Below, one piece after another: positions 2,531 through 48,294 of a stretch of 64,000 nt of DNA. Under the pieces are notes generated by a model. The model did no database searches, was not told where the DNA came from, and worked only from the letters and a program-made list of their open reading frames with translations. Position 1 is the stretch's first letter. Each line of letters starts with the position of its first letter. Source of the stretch: Macrosoma leucophasiata (Eukaryota; Arthropoda; Insecta; Lepidoptera; Hedylidae); the NCBI GenBank assembly GCA_036365455.1, contig JAWQUS010000030.1, forward strand, positions 4,650,001-4,714,000. The letters are read 5' to 3'. The translations under genes and the position numbers were made by a program.

Positions 2531-3336
2531 AACGCTGGGCGTCGGGGCGCTGGGCGTCGGGGCGCTGGGCGTCGGGACGCTGGGCGTCGGGACGCTGGGC
2601 GTCGGGACGCTGGGCGTCGGGACGCTGGGCGTCGGGACGCTGGGCGTCGGGACGCTGGGCGTCGGGACGCTGGGCGTCGGGACGCTGGGCGTCGGGACGC
2701 TGGGCGTCGGGACGCTGGGCGTCGGGACGCTGGGCGTCGGGACGCTGGGCGTCGGGACGCTGGGCGTCGGGACGCTGGGCGTCGGGACGCTCGACGTCGG
2801 GTCGCTGGGCGTCGGGACGCTGGGCGTCGGGACGCTGGGCGTCGGGACGCTGGGCGTCGGGACGCTGTGCGTCGGGACGCTGGGCGTCGGGACGCTGGGC
2901 GTCGGGACGCTGGGCGTCGGGACGCTGAGCGTCGGGATGCTGGGCGTCGGGACGCTGGGCGTCGGGACACTGGGCGTCGGGACGTTGGGCTTCAAGATGC
3001 TTGACTTCGGGACGCTGGCCGTCGGGATGCTGGGCGTCGGGACGCTGGGCGTTGGGACGCTGGGCGTCGGGACGTTGGGCTCGGGACGCTTGGCGTCGGG
3101 ATGCTGGGCGTCGGGATGCTGGGCGTCGGGACGTTACGCGCCAAGACGCTCGACGTCGGGTCGCTGGGCGTCGGGACGCTGGGCGTCGGGACGCTGGGCG
3201 TAGGGACGCTGGGCGTCGGGACGCTGGGCGTCGGGACGCTGGGCGTCGGGACGCTGGGCGTCGGGACGCTGGGCGTCGGGATGCTGCTCGTCGAAACGCT
3301 CGACGTCGGGACGCTGAGCGTCGGAACACCCAGCGT
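2531..3336 (+). repeat. 15-bp GC-rich minisatellite, about 54 copies
   Basis: Tandem repeats of the 15-mer gctgggcgtcgggac, nearly identical from 2560 to 2940 and more diverged afterwards, with a phase slip near 3080. The period is a multiple of three, so long frames stay open on both strands (Arg/Ala/Gly-rich or Pro/Thr/Ser-rich); these are artefacts, not genes. Just upstream (about 2478-2519) is a 'ctcgagaacggctggacc' stretch seen in insect dispersed elements, so the array may have grown inside one. Confidence 0.95.
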
Positions 3337-4405: not shown

Positions 4406-4853
4406 GATACAGAATAGTTAAAAATAATCGATATGATTCTTTAAATTGTCATAACTTTTTTATTTCTGGACCGATTGACACGAAACAAACACTTAATGTT
4501 TTTTACAACTTACCACAATATATTAGTGAAACTGCAAATCGGATAAGCCATTTCTGAAATTAGCGTGCACAAACACACAGACAAACAGACATTTTTCCAG
4601 GATAAAAAGTACCCAGTGTTGTGCGCCAAAGATTGTAGTATAATTATATCAAGTTTCATCGTATTCGGAAAGGTAGATTTTGTGTGATGCTTGAACAAAC
4701 AGACAGACAGATAAATTTTTTTCTAATCACATATTTGTGTTCGGTATCGATCTAGTAACATCCTCTGGTATTTATTTTTTTAATGTACAGAATTCACACT
4801 TCTACAGTTTTATTATAAGTATAGATTAATCCGTCAGTTGTTTGATTTATCGA

Positions 4854-35827: not shown

Positions 35828-36484
35828 AAAACTTTGTTCTAGAATCTGATTACTGATCGATTACTTACTCGATGAAACTGATTGCTCGTATAATAGCTGT
35901 CCAGTGCTAATGTTATTGGCGGTGCTCTAGACTGTAGTCGAGTTCACGACCACGCCTCGGACGCTAGTCCCCATTTCCCAGAAAGCCGGATACTATGACG
36001 TAATTCACTGAACACTGCCACCAATGGCAGGACCGACCGAGCCCAACTCGCTAGCGTATTGGGTCATACGTGGGAGCTGACAGTTGACTTTACGTCGGCG
36101 TGGCGGGGTGCCCCGCTTCTTGTCGGGCGGGAATTGCCCACGTGAGCGCCCTTCCTTCGGGTAAGCAAACTCTAGGCATATTTGGATTTTTACAACCAAT
36201 CTCATATCTTACGTATGTCTCGGTAAATGCCTGGAGATCGGTGATATCGATTTGATTTTTAGCGTTTAAGTCTATGTACGTAATACGTAATTGCTACAGT
36301 TACAAATCTAATGAAAATGGTTAAGCTACGTGTATTCCAGATAGGTAAATGGTTGTTCTTCGTTCATTTTATATGAAAAATATGTACTTGCTTAAATAAA
36401 AAATTTCTTATAAATAATAGAATTAGCTTCTGATTAAACTATATTATTTAAGATACACAGAAATACCAATTACATAAGGTAAAG

Positions 36485-39647: not shown

Positions 39648-42600
39648 TCAGAAGTTGTCGTAAACTTTTTCCTTTAATTTGTTTAATCTGTCATTAAAAG
39701 TGCGATCATCATATTCGTAAGTGAACATATTTATTGGTGTTAAGAAGCGTTTATCACACCATGTACAAATCTGTGTAAAATGTTCATGATTTAGGTTTCT
39801 AAAAATGTATTCGAAAAAATCAAAATCATTATATTTTCCCGCATAGTGAGCTACATTTCTGCCGAGCCCGTCTACAACCATGAATACATTCATTCTTTGT
39901 TCACAGTTCAATTTACTTATGTACGGCTTAAAAATACACATCGACTTGCGGTGTATTTTCACCGCATGGAGGACTGTCCTGTTTTCATTTGTTATATAAC
40001 GCAAACTTAACAATTTCACGAGATCTTCATTTTTCAGATCGTCCAAAAATATTTTCATTATTTTTTCACTTTCAAGTGATATTTCGGCATCCATTTGAAA
40101 AGCGTGTATTATAAGTGGTGAATGTAAAGTTGCATCCTGACATATTAAAACATTTATCAATTCGTTACTTTTAAATTTTTTTACTAACGCCAATAACCTC
40201 TCAATATAAATACTTTTATTTAATTTAGCAACAGCTGCACACAATATACAAGATAATCTACAACGAGTTCGCAAAAAAACAATGTAATTCATAATATTTC
40301 CTGCATTGACACAATTTTCTATGCAACTCAGTATAAAATCTACACAATTCTCTAATTTTTCTTCTATAGCAATATATAAGCAATTCACAGGTTCTATTTT
40401 GCGCATAAGACGATTAGGATCCATGAGCCAATTAAAAAATATTTTCTTATATTTAAAGTTTGAACTTAAACTGGCCAGCTCACTATCGATACTTAGTTTA
40501 CAGTCAAAAAATCTTCTGATATTGGGTTTATCTATCGTAAAAAAACATGAATCCCAAAATGACCACGTAGACTGCAAAAATGCTTCTGATTTTAGTTTAT
40601 CAGCCATAAATTCGGCTACAAAATATTCTGCAAAAGTTTGATGCACAAATTTGGTTTCATTATTTACAATTCGTTCTATGATTCCAGATTTTTCGCGTCC
40701 GGTTCTAATTTTTTCCATTAAATCATCAATTTCTTGCAAATGTGTTTCAGACAATAATGTCGATAGTTGTTTACTAGAAAAAATTGAATGCATTGCTAAT
40801 ATTTTGTGATTTTTTAAGAAAGAAACGTGTTCCTTGTCTATTATTGATTTCATGTCTGGAATATTTATACAATGACATGGTTTTTTTTCTCCAAACCTAA
40901 TATGGTAAAATTTAACTTCAATGAATTTTTCGTACAATGAGACTAGATTTAGAATGCTTGCAAATTTTTCCTTAAGTTTTGTATTGAGCTGTTTATTTCC
41001 TGATTCAAAAAATTCCTTGAATGTTTCTTCAAATATTTCAGCTATCATATAAATATGTAAAGGAATAATTGTGAACGAAGTATAGCTATTATTGTCATTC
41101 AATGAATAGCAAATATTATCGAAGAACTCATCTGCAAAAAGGTTGAACAAATCATTGTCTATTTCTTGGAGCTTTAAATTTTGTTTCCATAGACCTTTTA
41201 AAAATAACCTTTGATCTTGTGGCGAAAGTGGACTTAGTACGAAAGAAAAAGTTCTTAATTTACTTTCAAGTTCGTTTTGAATATTGTAGGAACGGGTTGT
41301 TATCCACAGTTTACTAATATTACTGTCTTTTAGTTTATCGACAAGATCATAAACCTCCATTGAAAAATCGGGACAGATTTCATCAAAGCCATCCAACATA
41401 ACTATTACTTTTCCTTGATTATATAATGAAACAAAAAGTTGTATTTCAAATAAATGTTCACCTTTCATGTCCTTAAGTTCACTATCGTCAAGATGTAAAA
41501 TATGCCCTTGTAACGTAAATTTATCTAGGAAAGTAAAGTCAACTTCTAGTGAGTTGTCATTAATTACCAAAATTTTGATTAAAAATTTTATTACTTCTAT
41601 GTTATTAATGTGGGTCTCGTGATTTTTCCATTTACTAAAATAATTTCTGTAATCGATCAAATTTATTCGTATCACCCAAAACGATGGATATTTCCTTTTC
41701 GTTTCTATTGCCAAATGTGTCAATAGTGTAGATTTTCCCATTCCGGGTTCTGCTGCAATAATTACAATTCTGTCATTTATATCATTTACGGTTGTGGGAT
41801 CAAAAGAACACAAAAACTGTTGACTTCTATTTATGTGCTTGAATATTTTATCAATTTCACCCCGGGATTTCTGCCAAAAATATAGGGAATAGTAATTTGT
41901 TTTGAACCAATGAACATTATAATTTTTATATTTATCACAAACATTGATGAACAATTTGTCATCAATGTCTATTATTACTAGATCATGTACATTTGATTGA
42001 ATTTCCTGATTTATATCAGAAACAATTAGTATATCGGTTTGGTTTTCTGCAATATCCAACAAAATACAACGATTTAGGATTCTATGAATATAGTATGGTT
42101 TAATGGTTTCATATCTTTTATTACTAACAGATCTATTTATAGAAATAGATTTCTGCATAATAATGTTTGATAAAACTTCGGTATTCAAAATATTTTTTGG
42201 AGGACGTGTATCTTGCAATAATGTTCCTAAAATTATGTTTTCTCCTTGAAATCTTACTTGCGTTTTTTCCAGAATTTCGATCTGGGATTTTGATTCGAGA
42301 TCTTTAAACTCATCCCTGGTATCATATTTTAAAACAAATTTTATTCCAAGTTGACTAATAAACTGTTTGTATACGTTAATTCTGGTGACAATTAAAGTAC
42401 AGCAATTTGCTTTGCTTAAAATATTTTTTAACATAAAAAGTGTGTACTTATTTTCTTGTAGTTCATCGCAAATAATTACTAATATCTTAACTTTAGATTC
42501 GTCAAGTTCCGACATCACAGCGTCGTAGTGAGACGATTTCAAAACAAAATTATATTCCAGAAAAGTACAGATATGAGCTAGATTCTTCAATTTTATGTAC

Positions 42601-44846
42601 TGATATATTTTTAAACAGCTTACAACTATGGTTTTTGATAAAATAACAACCAATTCTTTTTTATGTGTCAACAATATATCTCCAAAATGAAATGATTTAT
42701 TCAAATCAAACATTACGTCAATGTTCTTAAATTTAGTTACGACTAAGTAGTTTAAAATTGTCAGTAATGGACTATACATGATACTTCTCTTCGCTTTGTT
42801 GAATATATTGCACTCTTTTGTCAAGTAGTAAGCATGATTTGACTGTTTCCACCACTTCAGCACTTTGTTATGAACCTTTAAAAGAATTGCATTGCCTTTT
42901 ATTTTAAACAAGGAGTCGTCTAATTTGTTATCTTTATTATAATATTTATTGATCTCATATTTCAAAATTGTTTCGACTTCATTTTCTTTTGACTGGTTTG
43001 TAAAAAATGATAGATTTTGTAAAAAATCTTTAATGAGCATTTGGTCATATTGTTCAGATATCAAAGACAATTTTGGAAAATCATCAAAGTAAAATACAAA
43101 TCTATATCTATGGAAATTATTTTTTACTGGATTCTGCGCTACGAGTTTTTTATGAATGAATCTTACATTTTCCGGTAGATTTTGTTCATCGGTGTTAAAT
43201 TTTAACATGTTCGTTTCATCGTCTAATATAAATAAAGAGCCTACTAATCCACCAATACCTCCGACGATACCCAAATCATTAACAGAAATTAATTTATTAG
43301 GGCCAACAACATCAGTATCTACGTGAATTACATAATACAAACCATTTTTTTTAGCAGAATCTAATAATGATATAATTTTTATATATAAGCTATCGAGTCT
43401 TTTTAACTTTTTTTCACCTGTTCCTTTTACTTTAAAAACGGAGTTACCAAATGTGCTCGGCACCTTAATTTTTTTCATTTTTAAAATATTTTTTATAGTC
43501 TCACTTTCATTCCCTATCTTGTTTTTATTGAGACGATACACTTGTTCATACAAGACATCTCTGAAAAGAGTTAACAAACCACTTGTATCATCAAAAAATG
43601 TTTCTTTGAATTCAGCATTTTTATGCTCTTCGCCATCTATTGTATAAATGTTTAATACTTTATTAGCCAAAAATACATGGTAGACTTTCACATATTCGTC
43701 AGACATTATATGAGAAAACTTTTTATCACTTCCAAATATAAATTTCGTCAATCTTTCGGCCAATAAGGTAATACGAACTTTTGCAGCCATTTGTAAAAGT
43801 TGATTGATATCAGATTCATCATATTTAAATTGGAATATCTTACCAAATTCTTTTGTTTGTAAAATGTTATATTCAACATCATCAATCTTGTGCAGCATTT
43901 GCTTCTTGGCAAAATTTTCCGTAGCAGATGTAAAAATAATAAATTGGCTATCTATATCAGTAACATCATCTCTAAAAAACTGATCTTCATTGTTAACTTT
44001 GAATTTTTGTTTAATTCTTAAATAGCTATCAAAATATTTATATAAGCTAAAATCACCTTTTTCTCTCAATACATCTTCAACAGTTAATTTATCTTTAGCC
44101 GGGTTGTCTCTGTGTTTTGCCTGAATAAAAAACGCTTTCCGTTTTTTAATGCCACCAGCCTCGAATTTGAGTACAATGTCGTCAAAAGCACCGATATCGT
44201 TTACGTTCGTTCCTAAATAAAATTGCTTAATTGCATTATTATTTAATGCCCTCAACAGAATTAAACATAATAATTTAGTCTCGTAAAATTGTCCACTGAT
44301 GCCGGATGTCCCAGGTTTCTTTTCATAAAAAAGTTTATTATGTTCTGTTTTCAGTGAATTATGTGATATCTGCTTAGAAAGATTTTTCGAACGCTCTAAC
44401 AAAGTTGACTTAACTAATATACGTGATTCTAAACATTGTATTATCTGTTGCCTATTTATATTATTTTCGTGCAAATGAATAGCTAACTCTAAAGGTGTTT
44501 TGTTTTCTTTATTTTGGATATTGGTATTTGCTCCTTTTTTCAAAAGTAAATTAATCATATCTAGTTCTCCTTTGAGAACAGCTATATGAAGAGGGCTGTT
44601 GTCATTATTATTGGCGTCAATTGCATTAACGTTTGCTCCATTTTGAATATATCTTAAAATTTTTGAGGATTTAATATCACAATCTATATTTTTACGAAGC
44701 ATATTAAACAATTGCCCATTCTTTAATAATATTTCTTGTTCAATGTACTGGACATCTTGGGTTGATTCCACTTGTTTAGTGTTTAGTGCGTTTTTATTAA
44801 AACGCAAAATTATTCGAACAATTAAATATATTATAACAGCAAACAT
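39648..44846 (-). CDS. Ankyrin / nuclease-like / NACHT STAND protein (predicted innate-immune ATPase)
   Basis: Single uninterrupted frame of 1732 residues, without introns. Residues 2-15 are hydrophobic (possible anchor). About 60-130 form two ankyrin repeats (SPLHIAVLKGELDMINLLLK; TPLELAI). Residues 185-244 carry a PD-(D/E)XK-like set: E189 in GQFYETKLL, D222/D223 in GAFDDIVL and Q242-A-K244 in FFIQAKH, as in restriction-type and Cap4/DUF4297-like nucleases. The NACHT ATPase has Walker A at 1032-1040 (AEPGMGKST), Walker B at 1147-1156 (VIVMLDGFDE) and a sensor arginine in WITTRS. FVHQTFAEYFVAEF (1400-1413) is the NLR winged-helix signature. The C-terminus (about 1485-1730) has degenerate ankyrin-like segments (RTVLHAVK; GRNVAHYAGK). 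The start ATG has acaaaATG context. From the family I expect ATP-driven oligomerisation that activates the nuclease; the trigger is unknown. It resembles, from memory, uncharacterised arthropod predicted proteins. Confidence 0.92.
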   Translation of the reverse strand: MFAVIIYLIVRIILRFNKNALNTKQVESTQDVQYIEQEILLKNGQLFNMLRKNIDCDIKSSKILRYIQNGANVNAIDANNNDNSPLHIAVLKGELDMINLLLKKGANTNIQNKENKTPLELAIHLHENNINRQQIIQCLESRILVKSTLLERSKNLSKQISHNSLKTEHNKLFYEKKPGTSGISGQFYETKLLCLILLRALNNNAIKQFYLGTNVNDIGAFDDIVLKFEAGGIKKRKAFFIQAKHRDNPAKDKLTVEDVLREKGDFSLYKYFDSYLRIKQKFKVNNEDQFFRDDVTDIDSQFIIFTSATENFAKKQMLHKIDDVEYNILQTKEFGKIFQFKYDESDINQLLQMAAKVRITLLAERLTKFIFGSDKKFSHIMSDEYVKVYHVFLANKVLNIYTIDGEEHKNAEFKETFFDDTSGLLTLFRDVLYEQVYRLNKNKIGNESETIKNILKMKKIKVPSTFGNSVFKVKGTGEKKLKRLDSLYIKIISLLDSAKKNGLYYVIHVDTDVVGPNKLISVNDLGIVGGIGGLVGSLFILDDETNMLKFNTDEQNLPENVRFIHKKLVAQNPVKNNFHRYRFVFYFDDFPKLSLISEQYDQMLIKDFLQNLSFFTNQSKENEVETILKYEINKYYNKDNKLDDSLFKIKGNAILLKVHNKVLKWWKQSNHAYYLTKECNIFNKAKRSIMYSPLLTILNYLVVTKFKNIDVMFDLNKSFHFGDILLTHKKELVVILSKTIVVSCLKIYQYIKLKNLAHICTFLEYNFVLKSSHYDAVMSELDESKVKILVIICDELQENKYTLFMLKNILSKANCCTLIVTRINVYKQFISQLGIKFVLKYDTRDEFKDLESKSQIEILEKTQVRFQGENIILGTLLQDTRPPKNILNTEVLSNIIMQKSISINRSVSNKRYETIKPYYIHRILNRCILLDIAENQTDILIVSDINQEIQSNVHDLVIIDIDDKLFINVCDKYKNYNVHWFKTNYYSLYFWQKSRGEIDKIFKHINRSQQFLCSFDPTTVNDINDRIVIIAAEPGMGKSTLLTHLAIETKRKYPSFWVIRINLIDYRNYFSKWKNHETHINNIEVIKFLIKILVINDNSLEVDFTFLDKFTLQGHILHLDDSELKDMKGEHLFEIQLFVSLYNQGKVIVMLDGFDEICPDFSMEVYDLVDKLKDSNISKLWITTRSYNIQNELESKLRTFSFVLSPLSPQDQRLFLKGLWKQNLKLQEIDNDLFNLFADEFFDNICYSLNDNNSYTSFTIIPLHIYMIAEIFEETFKEFFESGNKQLNTKLKEKFASILNLVSLYEKFIEVKFYHIRFGEKKPCHCINIPDMKSIIDKEHVSFLKNHKILAMHSIFSSKQLSTLLSETHLQEIDDLMEKIRTGREKSGIIERIVNNETKFVHQTFAEYFVAEFMADKLKSEAFLQSTWSFWDSCFFTIDKPNIRRFFDCKLSIDSELASLSSNFKYKKIFFNWLMDPNRLMRKIEPVNCLYIAIEEKLENCVDFILSCIENCVNAGNIMNYIVFLRTRCRLSCILCAAVAKLNKSIYIERLLALVKKFKSNELINVLICQDATLHSPLIIHAFQMDAEISLESEKIMKIFLDDLKNEDLVKLLSLRYITNENRTVLHAVKIHRKSMCIFKPYISKLNCEQRMNVFMVVDGLGRNVAHYAGKYNDFDFFEYIFRNLNHEHFTQICTWCDKRFLTPINMFTYEYDDRTFNDRLNKLKEKVYDNF

Positions 44847-45050
44847 TTTGTTTCGTAGTGAAAATGTTCTTAATGTTCTAATTGAGTTTGGCTACCTAAT
44901 TATAAAGATCACTTTAGTAAGGGTATAACTATACACATTATTAGTACAGATCTGAGTCCACGTATTTCTTCAGCGCCTATTGCCATTTCATGTCAGCATT
45001 ACCTTTAAAAAAGACATCATACCATCAAATTATTCTTAGAAGTCTATAAA
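44847..45050 (-). promoter_or_regulatory. Short upstream region of the STAND gene
   Basis: Only about 200 bp separate the start codon from the tRNA-like array. On the minus strand a TATA-like ctttataatt lies about 60 bp upstream of the ATG. No splice acceptor is obvious directly before the ATG, which favours the chosen start, but an upstream non-coding exon cannot be excluded. Confidence 0.25.
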
Positions 45051-45051
45051 T

Positions 45052-46507
45052 ATATTTTATTTCTAAAGAAAAATGGAAAGAAAAATTTGACTTCAGGCGA
45101 GGCTCGAACTCGCGACCTACTGGGAATCTAGTCCAGCCGCTCTTCCAATTGAGCTACTGAAGCCCTGCCCGATTTGTCAAATCTTTCCTTCACATCTATT
45201 GCATTGCTTTATGGTAGCAGTAGCGCCATCTATTACCAACTATGCTAGTTAGGCAACCGATATAATAGACTTTTCAGTTTATTGAATATCGTAAAGAAGT
45301 CGCTTTTACCCTTAATAATTGTTTGATATTATTTCGCATTAACACATGCTTGTGAAATATATTTTATTTTTAAAGAAAAATGGAAAGAAAAATTTGACTT
45401 CAGGCGAGGCTCGAACTCGCGACCTACTGGGAATCTAGTCCAGCCGCTCTTCCAATTGAGCTACTGAAGCCCTGCCCGATTTGTCAAATCTTTCCTTCAC
45501 ATCTATTGCATTGCTTTATGGTAGCAGTAGCGCCATCTATTACCAACTATGCTAGTTAGGCAACCGATATAATAGACTTTTCAGTTTATTGAATATCGTA
45601 AAGAAGTCGCTTTTACCCTTAATAATTGTTTGATATTATTTCGCATTAACACATGCTTGTGAAATATATTTTATTTTTAAAGAAAAATGGAAAGAAAAAT
45701 TTGACTTCAGGCGAGGCTCGAACTCGCGACCTACTGGGAATCTAGTCCAGCCGCTCTTCCAATTGAGCTACTGAAGCCCTGCCCGATTTGTCAAATCTTT
45801 CCTTCACATCTATTGCATTGCTTTATGGTAGCAGTAGCGCCATCTATTACCAACTATGCTAGTTAGGCAACCAATATAATAGACTTTTCAGTTTATTGAA
45901 TATCGTAAAGAAGTCGCTTTTACCCTTAATAATTGTTTGATATTATTTCGCATTAACACATGCTTGTGAAATATATTTTATTTTTAAAGAAAAATGGAAA
46001 GAAAAATTTGACTTCAGGCGAGGCTCGAACTCGCGACCTACTGGGAATCTAGTCCAGCCGCTCTTCCAATTGAGCTACTGAAGCCCTGCCCGATTTGTCA
46101 AATCTTTCCTTCACATCTATTGCATTGCTTTATGGTAGCAGTAGCGCCATCTATTACCAACTATGCTAGTTAGGCAACCGATATAATAGACTTTTCAGTT
46201 TATTGAATATCGTAAAGAAGTCGCTTTTACCCTTAATAATTGTTTGATATTATTTCGCATTAACACATGCTTGTGAAATATATTTTATTTTTAAAGAAAA
46301 ATGGAAAGAAAAATTTGACTTCAGGCGAGGCTCGAACTCGCGACCTACTGGGAATCTAGTCCAGCCGCTCTTCCAATTGAGCTACTGAAGCCCTGCCCGA
46401 TTTGTCAAATCTTTCCTTCACATCTATTGCATTGCTTTATGGTAGCAGTAGCGCCATCTATTACCAACTATGCTAGTTAGGCAACCGATATAATAGACTA
46501 GACTAGA
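45052..46507 (-). repeat. Tandem array: five 307-bp tRNA-like units (family T)
   Basis: Five direct units have an exact 307-bp period, at nearly identical sequence; the last one is cut near 46500. Each has a tRNA-like body on the minus strand at 45089-45164, 45396-45471, 45703-45778, 46010-46085 and 46317-46392. A box TAGCTCAATTGG, B box GAGTTCGAGCC and a TTTTT run just past the 3' end are present in all. The acceptor GCTTCAG pairs with CTGAAGT (one G-U). The anticodon arm cannot form a 7-base loop without a bulge, so decoding function is doubtful. The rest of the unit includes 'gtagcagtagcgccatctat' and 'atgcttgtgaaatatatttt'. Confidence 0.92.
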
Positions 46508-46870
46508 AATAAAATATATTTCACAAGCATGTGTTAATGCGAAATAATATCAAACAATTATTAAGGGTAAAAGCGACTTCTTTACGATATTCAATAAACT
46601 GAAAAGTCTATTATATCGGTTGCTCTAGCATAGTTGGTAATAGATGGCGCTACTGCTACCATAAAGCAATGCAATAGATGTGAAGGAAAGATTTGACAAA
46701 TCGGGCAGGGCTTCAGTAGCTCAATTGGAAGAGCGGCTGGACTAGATTCCCAGTAGGTCGCGAGTTCGAGCCTCGCCTGAAGTCAAATTTTTCTTTCCAT
46801 TTTTCTTTAAAAATAAAATATATTTCACAAGCATGTGTTAATGCGAAATAATATCAAACAGTCTATAAAT
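46508..46870 (+). repeat. Inverted sixth unit closing the array
   Basis: From 46508 the sequence is the reverse complement of a full 307-bp unit, with the tRNA-like body on the plus strand at 46709-46784, followed by about 50 bp repeating the start of another inverted unit. The junction at 46498-46507 is a short 'gactagactag' repeat, so direct and inverted copies meet head to head with almost no spacer. Confidence 0.9.
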
Positions 46871-48294
46871 ATACCTACAGGTATATTGGTTTATAGATCA
46901 TAATACATACCGGGTACACAAGTAACATTTATGGAACACAAGCGAGTAAAGTGATTCAAATTCTTGTGCATAATGTTCTTTCAATAATGGAGTAAACACT
47001 TATTTCACTTTTAAAATAATCGTTCAATGCGCCATAAACTTAATAAACTAAATATTATTGTTAATGCGTCCACTCCAACTTAAATTTCACATATCATAGA
47101 GTATTGAAGCAACTGATAACGAGTGCAATCTTATCAATTGCGAGAATACATTTTATCAGAATAGCAAAAATCGATAATCGCAACTACACAAAATAAATAG
47201 CATTGAATATTAATAGTTAAGATGAATTTTATAGCATTACTTTGTTATACGTAGCAAAGTCTTAGGTATACGAGTAAAAGCATAATATACCTAAGCACTG
47301 TAACTGTGTAAATAATGACAAAATATAGTTACTGTCTAATGTTAGACTAAAGGATAACCAATAGTTAGACCAGACGTAGTTACATATTATATTAAATTAA
47401 ATGTAATAATAATATTCAGAAATTACAACCAGACATGAATGCATCTAATTTTGTTTATAGTAACATGACATTTTGTTTATAGTAACATGATAATTTTGTG
47501 AAATGAATGTGCATTGTACTTGATATTGTAAAACAAAGTTATAAGTTTCATATTGTGAAAATAGTTTTAAGGAACATATTTTGAAAAGACCCTACTGAGT
47601 TTTGTTTTGGCAGGTTTTTTCTCAGTAATGTGGGCTTTGGAACTCTGCCAGTGAATGACAAAGAATGTCCCATATTTTTTTGTTTAGTCTTATCTTGCCG
47701 TTTGTAAAAGAGAGTATGGAACATTCTGTTGATACCTATTTTTATTATTAAGTATTTTTGGACTATTATTAATTTATTTACTTTGACATATTAATCAACG
47801 TATCAGTTGTTATTCGCTTTAATTTTATATTTGTAATTTGACCTATCACAAGCAAATTCTATTATTTATTAAGTGATTAAATGAATTTTTGAGTTTGAGT
47901 TTGAGTTTGACATGTTTCATAAGTGTTTGTGATTAAAAAAAGTTTATTACCACAACTTTTTTACATTTTTAAAAATATAGGTCAAATTAAACAATTTAGA
48001 CTTCATGTAAAACACGAGCCATTGCTTAATTAAACTTTGGAAGAATAGAGTTCAAACTTTATCAGCAAGTCATCCTACGTTATTGCTGAAAGATGAAAAA
48101 TTAGCGTTTTAATTGAAAATAGCCGTGAAATATTAAACATGATCCAATGTGAGCGGCTGCTTGCTTTTTTAATACAAATTATCGTACATTTTATTCAATA
48201 AATCAATCAAAGTAAAGGACATCTTCATGTCGACACTTCTGTCGAGATTCATAGTAGTAACAAACGATCGGATTCCGGTAAGCTACATTATTAA
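46871..48294. other. Gene-poor stretch
   Basis: AT-rich. 47610-47720 is a copy of the repeat at 23620-23740 ('ctctgccagtgaatgacaaa'). No coding frame. Confidence 0.4.

Follow-up and report, generated by a model that had tools for sequence, protein, structure and literature searches.

Organization of a putative nuclease-bearing STAND receptor

Analysis of a 64,000-nt stretch of the Macrosoma leucophasiata genome (the window; contig JAWQUS010000030.1, positions 4,650,001 to 4,714,000) centred on an open reading frame (ORF) whose product is probably an intact insect STAND receptor with a nuclease effector of its own, working like the bacterial antiviral STAND (Avs) protein Avs3. Sequence comparison and structure prediction establish the succession of (i) ankyrin repeats, (ii) a nuclease of predicted DUF4297/Cap4 type, (iii) a middle region, (iv) a predicted NOD-like receptor (NLR)-type NACHT module with intact ATP motifs and (v) a C-terminus modelled with an ankyrin fold, all encoded by one exon (Table 1). 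We infer an immune function for this protein.

A first-pass annotation, made from the letters of the stretch, had proposed an Avs-like plan of effector, ATPase and sensor, which is supported by motif conservation, profile comparisons and structure prediction. The ORF (39648-44846) is as described there: a frame of 1732 amino acids (aa) free of stops is expected with a probability of ~10^-52 at the base composition of the window, and the remaining five frames contain 64 to 218 stops.

The Walker A (GMGKST, from residue 1035) and Walker B (LDGFDE, from residue 1151) motifs were correctly recognized as intact, and both are conserved in relatives; the winged-helix motif FVHQTFAEYF was likewise found, from residue 1400. 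The Pfam NACHT family scores 23.6 bits in the moth protein, below the cut-off of 26.7, but exceeds it in the relatives P0022 (mosquito; 36.8) and P0024 (cockroach; 32.2). Since the predicted fold of the STAND region is that of an NLR-type NACHT, with NLR folds at the top of the structure search, a different ATPase fold, named beforehand as an outcome that would overturn the assignment, is set aside. A search of PDB sequences with the STAND profile gave no match. CARD, PYD and leucine-rich repeats were not found in the moth protein in a scan with 12 Pfam families.

Ankyrin repeats were predicted for both ends of the protein. At the N-terminus they exceed the Pfam cut-offs at residues 62-126. 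At the C-terminus the ankyrin fold appears in the structural model, whereas none of the 12 Pfam families has its best stretch there. The first 36 aa (44739-44846) form an extension absent, by eye, from the 12 relatives whose N-termini were compared; this hydrophobic extension is possibly a membrane anchor, or possibly an artefact of start choice, the upstream start being unused.

The set of PD-(D/E)XK motifs indicated by the first-pass annotation is real (E189, D222/D223 and Q242xK244), but the domain occupies residues 170-345 and thus extends beyond the suggested 150-260. The DUF4297/Cap4 core fold (by prediction) is present together with the E...D...(Q/E)xK motif. The complete motif is kept in the moth protein and 55 other rows of the 64 in the nuclease alignment, though the rest of the domain is much changed, which suggests selection for catalysis.

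Several further assignments were considered and rejected. Neither a second, degenerate NTPase at residues 715-845 nor a further nuclease copy at residues 345-470 or 470-620 was supported by hhalign, and no internal duplication was found in the middle region.

Table 1. Features of the moth gene and its predicted product (window coordinates; counts refer to alignment rows)
Feature	Residues	Position	Strand	Remarks
ORF	1-1732	39648..44846	minus	single exon, 1732 aa + stop, no internal stop
Hydrophobic helix	1-17	44796..44846	minus	within the N-terminal extension
N-terminal ankyrin repeats	32-144	44415..44753	minus	Pfam matches and predicted fold
PD-(D/E)XK nuclease domain, DUF4297/Cap4 type	170-345	43812..44339	minus	
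Acidic motif residue 1	E189	44280..44282	minus	E in 55/64 rows, Q in 4
Acidic motif 2	D222-D223	44178..44183	minus	D in 61/64 and 63/64 rows
QxK variant of (D/E)xK motif	Q242-A-K244	44115..44123	minus	Q in 62/64, K in 59/64 rows
Conserved middle region	346-841	42324..43811	minus	common to phage WO giant protein; partly in other Wolbachia proteins
STAND core (NACHT NTPase, helical and winged-helix domains)	842-1481	40404..42323	minus	
Walker A, PGMGKST	1034-1040	41727..41747	minus	K1038 in 66/67 covering rows
Walker B, LDGFDE	1151-1156	41379..41396	minus	D1155 in 63/67 covering rows
Winged-helix motif, FVHQTFAEYF	1400-1409	40620..40649	minus	H1402 in 55/61 covering rows
C-terminal repeats with ankyrin fold, candidate sensor	1482-1732	39651..40403	minus	predicted fold

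Comparison with known systems and proposed mechanism

The moth protein shares with bacterial Avs3 (SeAvs3) the order of the parts (Cap4-type nuclease, STAND, repeats) and the nuclease superfamily. It differs in its ankyrin C-terminus, additional N-terminal ankyrins, long middle region and insect host. The sensors of Avs proteins are TPR-like (tetratricopeptide repeat-like). As in Avs proteins, effector, STAND ATPase and repeats are predicted to lie in one chain, and an Avs4 chain (8dgf_B) was found at Foldseek rank 36. Avs3 and Cap4 chains were not among the best 50 matches in either of two fold searches, the lists being filled by ankyrin; the matches listed for the BFVD fold search are also mainly ankyrin proteins. 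PADLOC includes Avs models, and scans of the moth protein and family members with it matched no family named Avs.

According to one report (PMC11291478), target binding by SeAvs3 leads to tetramerization and pairing of its nucleases, and HerA-DUF4297 is a double-stranded DNA nuclease that depends on the pairing of its nuclease domains. In this anti-phage complex the nuclease partners a separate HerA ATPase, whereas the moth protein joins both in one chain (12% identity). Compared with animal NLRs (NLRC4, NOD2, NLRP3), the moth protein carries an enzymatic domain in place of the death-fold adaptor and, at its C-terminus, an ankyrin fold without leucine-rich repeats.

Since the parts match those of SeAvs3 in kind and order, ligand-triggered oligomerization with DNA cleavage is the most likely mechanism. 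The C-terminal repeats would bind a foreign or danger-associated protein, upon which the NACHT module would exchange its nucleotide and oligomerize; pairing of the nuclease domains in the oligomer would then permit DNA to be cut, and the infected cell would be killed or arrested. Insects are generally said to lack classical NLRs. If the proposed reading is true, an enzyme-armed, bacterial-style STAND defence would be placed in insects, and the genes described here would offer a concrete family in which immunity to viruses or symbionts could be tested in insects, pest moths included.

Relatives and distribution of the family

The first homology search yielded 65 proteins, many of them matching via ankyrin repeats only. 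Full-length homologues (32-38% identity) come from the noctuid moths Helicoverpa, Spodoptera, Heliothis and Mythimna, along with some unnamed sequences. Co-linear relatives, a search for which in arthropods had been recommended by the first-pass annotation, came from aphids, beetles, a mosquito (Wyeomyia) and a cockroach (Blattella). The moth protein grouped with a moth clade in the STAND tree (bootstrap 91, SH-aLRT 88). The Mythimna copies seem to be tandemly expanded, as judged by locus numbers alone.

Both the nuclease and the STAND core scored above 25 bits in 49 of 120 rows, with the nuclease first in all 49; the STAND core occurred alone in 17 rows and the nuclease alone in 9. The rows were collected with nuclease-bearing queries, and these shares are not natural frequencies. 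Two copies of the nuclease domain plus ankyrin repeats, with no STAND core above 25 bits, were observed in four Logan proteins (P0013, P0067, P0071 and P0075).

In spider protein P0066 the family STAND core stands behind a lipase-like N-terminus (Lipase_3, 0.0007, below the cut-off), and metagenome proteins including P0031 and P0032 combine this core with a lipase-like N-terminus that is above the cut-off. The effector thus varies (lipase-like or nuclease) on a constant STAND switch, as predicted by an effector-switch-sensor design. The metagenome proteins P0027-P0041 carry NACHT and ankyrin, some being lipase-like at the N-terminus; that of P0030 resembles, by eye, the N-terminus of a Wolbachia giant protein.

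Searches by tblastn with residues 160-930 detected no relative in plasmids or in annotated phage records; those with residues 842-1450, run against plasmids, likewise detected none. Scanning of prokaryote genomes with the STAND alignment returned 17 loci of only 21-30% identity, which were read as generic NACHT proteins and rejected as relatives.

The first-pass annotation had called a nuclease-armed NACHT protein in this genome notable. NACHT proteins of arthropods are, however, already on record: Bordenstein and Bordenstein (2016) placed the prophage WO NACHT domain among arthropod homologues, including those of Bombyx, Culex and Daphnia (PMC5062602), and a crustacean NLR is also in print (PMC12370184). 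The homologues of the prophage WO domain, described for the NACHT domain alone in the passages concerned, probably form one STAND lineage with the moth protein. The main text of PMC5062602 contains no word that starts with "nuclease" (words such as "endonuclease" fall outside that count), and none of the literature matches listed (open-licence PMC papers, by the openings of their abstracts) was seen to describe an insect NACHT protein with a nuclease. Relative to the main text of PMC5062602, in which phage WO NACHT and its arthropod relatives are already known, the co-linear ankyrin-nuclease-NACHT module is added here.

A co-linear counterpart in Wolbachia phage WO

The first-pass annotation described the protein as an animal STAND ATPase and overlooked the recurrence of the module in phage WO, a protein of which carries the same core; the gene is therefore not purely an animal NLR. 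When the nuclease alignment was used to scan viral contigs, two (L018 and L019) were identified, both of which are Wolbachia phage WO; L018 matches AB036666.1 at 99.4% DNA identity along 1.3 kb, and MN180251.1 at 85% in short stretches. The same scan with the STAND alignment returned nothing, though the WO contigs encode that core and were therefore missed by it.

Contig L018 contains a giant ORF extending from position 4662 to beyond 16517 (at least 3952 aa, still open where the retrieved sequence ends). Its product begins with an OTU-like domain (below the Pfam cut-off) and ankyrins, continues with the nuclease and middle region, and then has NACHT (24.3 bits, likewise below the cut-off) and further ankyrins. 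The moth protein aligns with this product co-linearly from the ankyrins to NACHT, at 40% identity over residues 71-436 and 37% over residues 460-1420, values as high as those for the noctuid homologues. The giant protein differs in its size, the added OTU-like domain and long ankyrin arrays, its probable cif neighbours and its apparently mosaic phylogeny. The counterpart gene in L019 is interrupted.

Beside the giant ORF lie adjacent ORFs of 732 aa (PDDEXK_9, 1.2e-7) and 445 aa (30% identity to a hypothetical ORF of WO from wMel_KL), which we take to be cifB and cifA, respectively, and which probably form a cifA/cifB pair. The co-linear phage copy ties host immune-type modules to the neighbourhood of cytoplasmic incompatibility genes and makes the question of donor and recipient testable.

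Three further Wolbachia proteins bear the nuclease. In P0091, and in P0090, which also has the Pfam domains NB-ARC and TPR, it is joined by a portion of the middle region; P0118 was matched over the ankyrin and nuclease part.

Phylogeny of the modules

In the STAND tree, which places phage WO within arthropod diversity, aphids are its sister group (100/99; 61% identity). Constraining the phage to the moth clade of the query was rejected (approximately unbiased test, p = 0.0009), as was grouping it with the query alone (p = 2e-6). In the nuclease tree, which has modest support and several long branches, the phage adjoins the moths and a constraint with aphids was rejected (p = 0.0006); a single clade of the three Wolbachia sequences was also rejected (p = 0.008), these occupying separate places outside the moths. 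The groups tested were picked after inspection of quick trees, and the rows had been thinned to 28 (STAND) and 27 (nuclease).

Since the two trees conflict, the phage WO protein looks like a mosaic whose modules were exchanged, and modules have probably moved more than once. The breadth of the arthropod rows (sampling is uneven) favours arthropods as the home of the STAND core. As the core also occurs in a Wolbachia phage protein, the history of this gene includes horizontal exchange.

Evaluation of alternative explanations

A wider proposal, which we put forward tentatively and hold somewhat less probable than its opposite, is that arthropods possess unrecognized, fast-evolving Avs3-like receptors, in which NACHT switches a Cap4-type nuclease, and that phage WO has repeatedly taken or exchanged their modules and uses them against the host; a host immune receptor and a reproductive parasite would then use common nuclease-STAND parts. 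On the main reading itself, the family, to judge from its distribution, is probably resident in arthropod genomes and fast-evolving, and the phage has probably taken up the core module, perhaps as an effector or to interfere with the host protein. Descent in the opposite direction seems unlikely: an effector of phage WO (from the eukaryotic association module) would have entered insect genomes and been domesticated as the moth gene, which would now be neutral or co-opted, or would counteract reproductive manipulation as an antidote or by blocking it. Such an origin would suit the co-linear giant protein beside the probable cifA/cifB, the nuclease in other Wolbachia proteins, the scattered positions of three Wolbachia sequences in the nuclease tree, and an intronless gene whose GC content (28.9%) is near that of the WO module (31.2%). 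It fits poorly with the STAND tree, which nests the phage with aphids, rejects its grouping with the moth clade of the query and contains deeper and more numerous arthropod rows (unevenly sampled); moreover, the CifB-like ORF had no match in the moth genome in a search run without a positive control.

Several observations weigh against a functional Avs3-like receptor. The nuclease of the moth protein has no sequence match in Pfam or PADLOC scans, its family profile matches nothing in PDB sequences, and the PADLOC endonuclease model was missed by 21 of the 22 family members scanned, the query included (P0022 matched it, at 5.1e-6). The structural alignment with 9c1m extends past the nuclease domain (model residues 181-689) at 12% identity, and a whole-genome search with the Pfam NACHT family matched nowhere, this gene included. 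Only one copy of the gene was found, compared with several in Mythimna; it is also intronless and AT-rich (flanks of 5 kb have 36-38% GC), features that also suit a horizontally acquired gene. Finally, the nuclease motif is partly lost in 8 of the 64 rows (e.g. P0012, P0074, P0048 and P0040). This loss would be expected if the protein acted as a sensor or scaffold and its nuclease domain had ceased to be catalytic, which we consider very improbable given the complete motif in the query and 55 other rows.

STAND proteins in general have roles such as DNA surveillance, developmental cell death and transposon control, and the moth protein might be a host protein with a non-immune role of this kind. 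We regard this as decidedly unlikely, since conflict accounts better than housekeeping for a family that is strongly divergent, varies in copy number (with probable tandem copies in Mythimna), swaps effectors and has been taken up by the phage of an endosymbiont.

Genomic location and neighbouring sequences

The ORF is located at 4.69 Mb on its contig (C30) of the 616-Mb genome assembly (61 contigs). Searches of this genome with the moth protein itself, P0009 and mosquito P0022 matched the nuclease and NACHT parts at this locus only; further matches involved the ankyrin portions of the queries only (in one of the runs, 23 of 117 candidates were scored). A mobile element was considered and rejected: one genomic copy was found, and inverted repeats around the ORF are limited to one 92% AT-rich pair of 25 nt (36410-36434 / 47845-47869).

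An array ending ~200 bp upstream of the ORF (45048-46860) consists of 4.7 copies of a 307-bp unit (99% identity) and contains five tRNA-Ser(AGA)-like genes; a sixth such gene lies in an inverted copy of 236 bp, also in this region, that is perfect. Elsewhere in the window, a GC-rich minisatellite (2532-3324; 15-bp unit, ~53 copies) probably explains several overlapping ORFs at that position.
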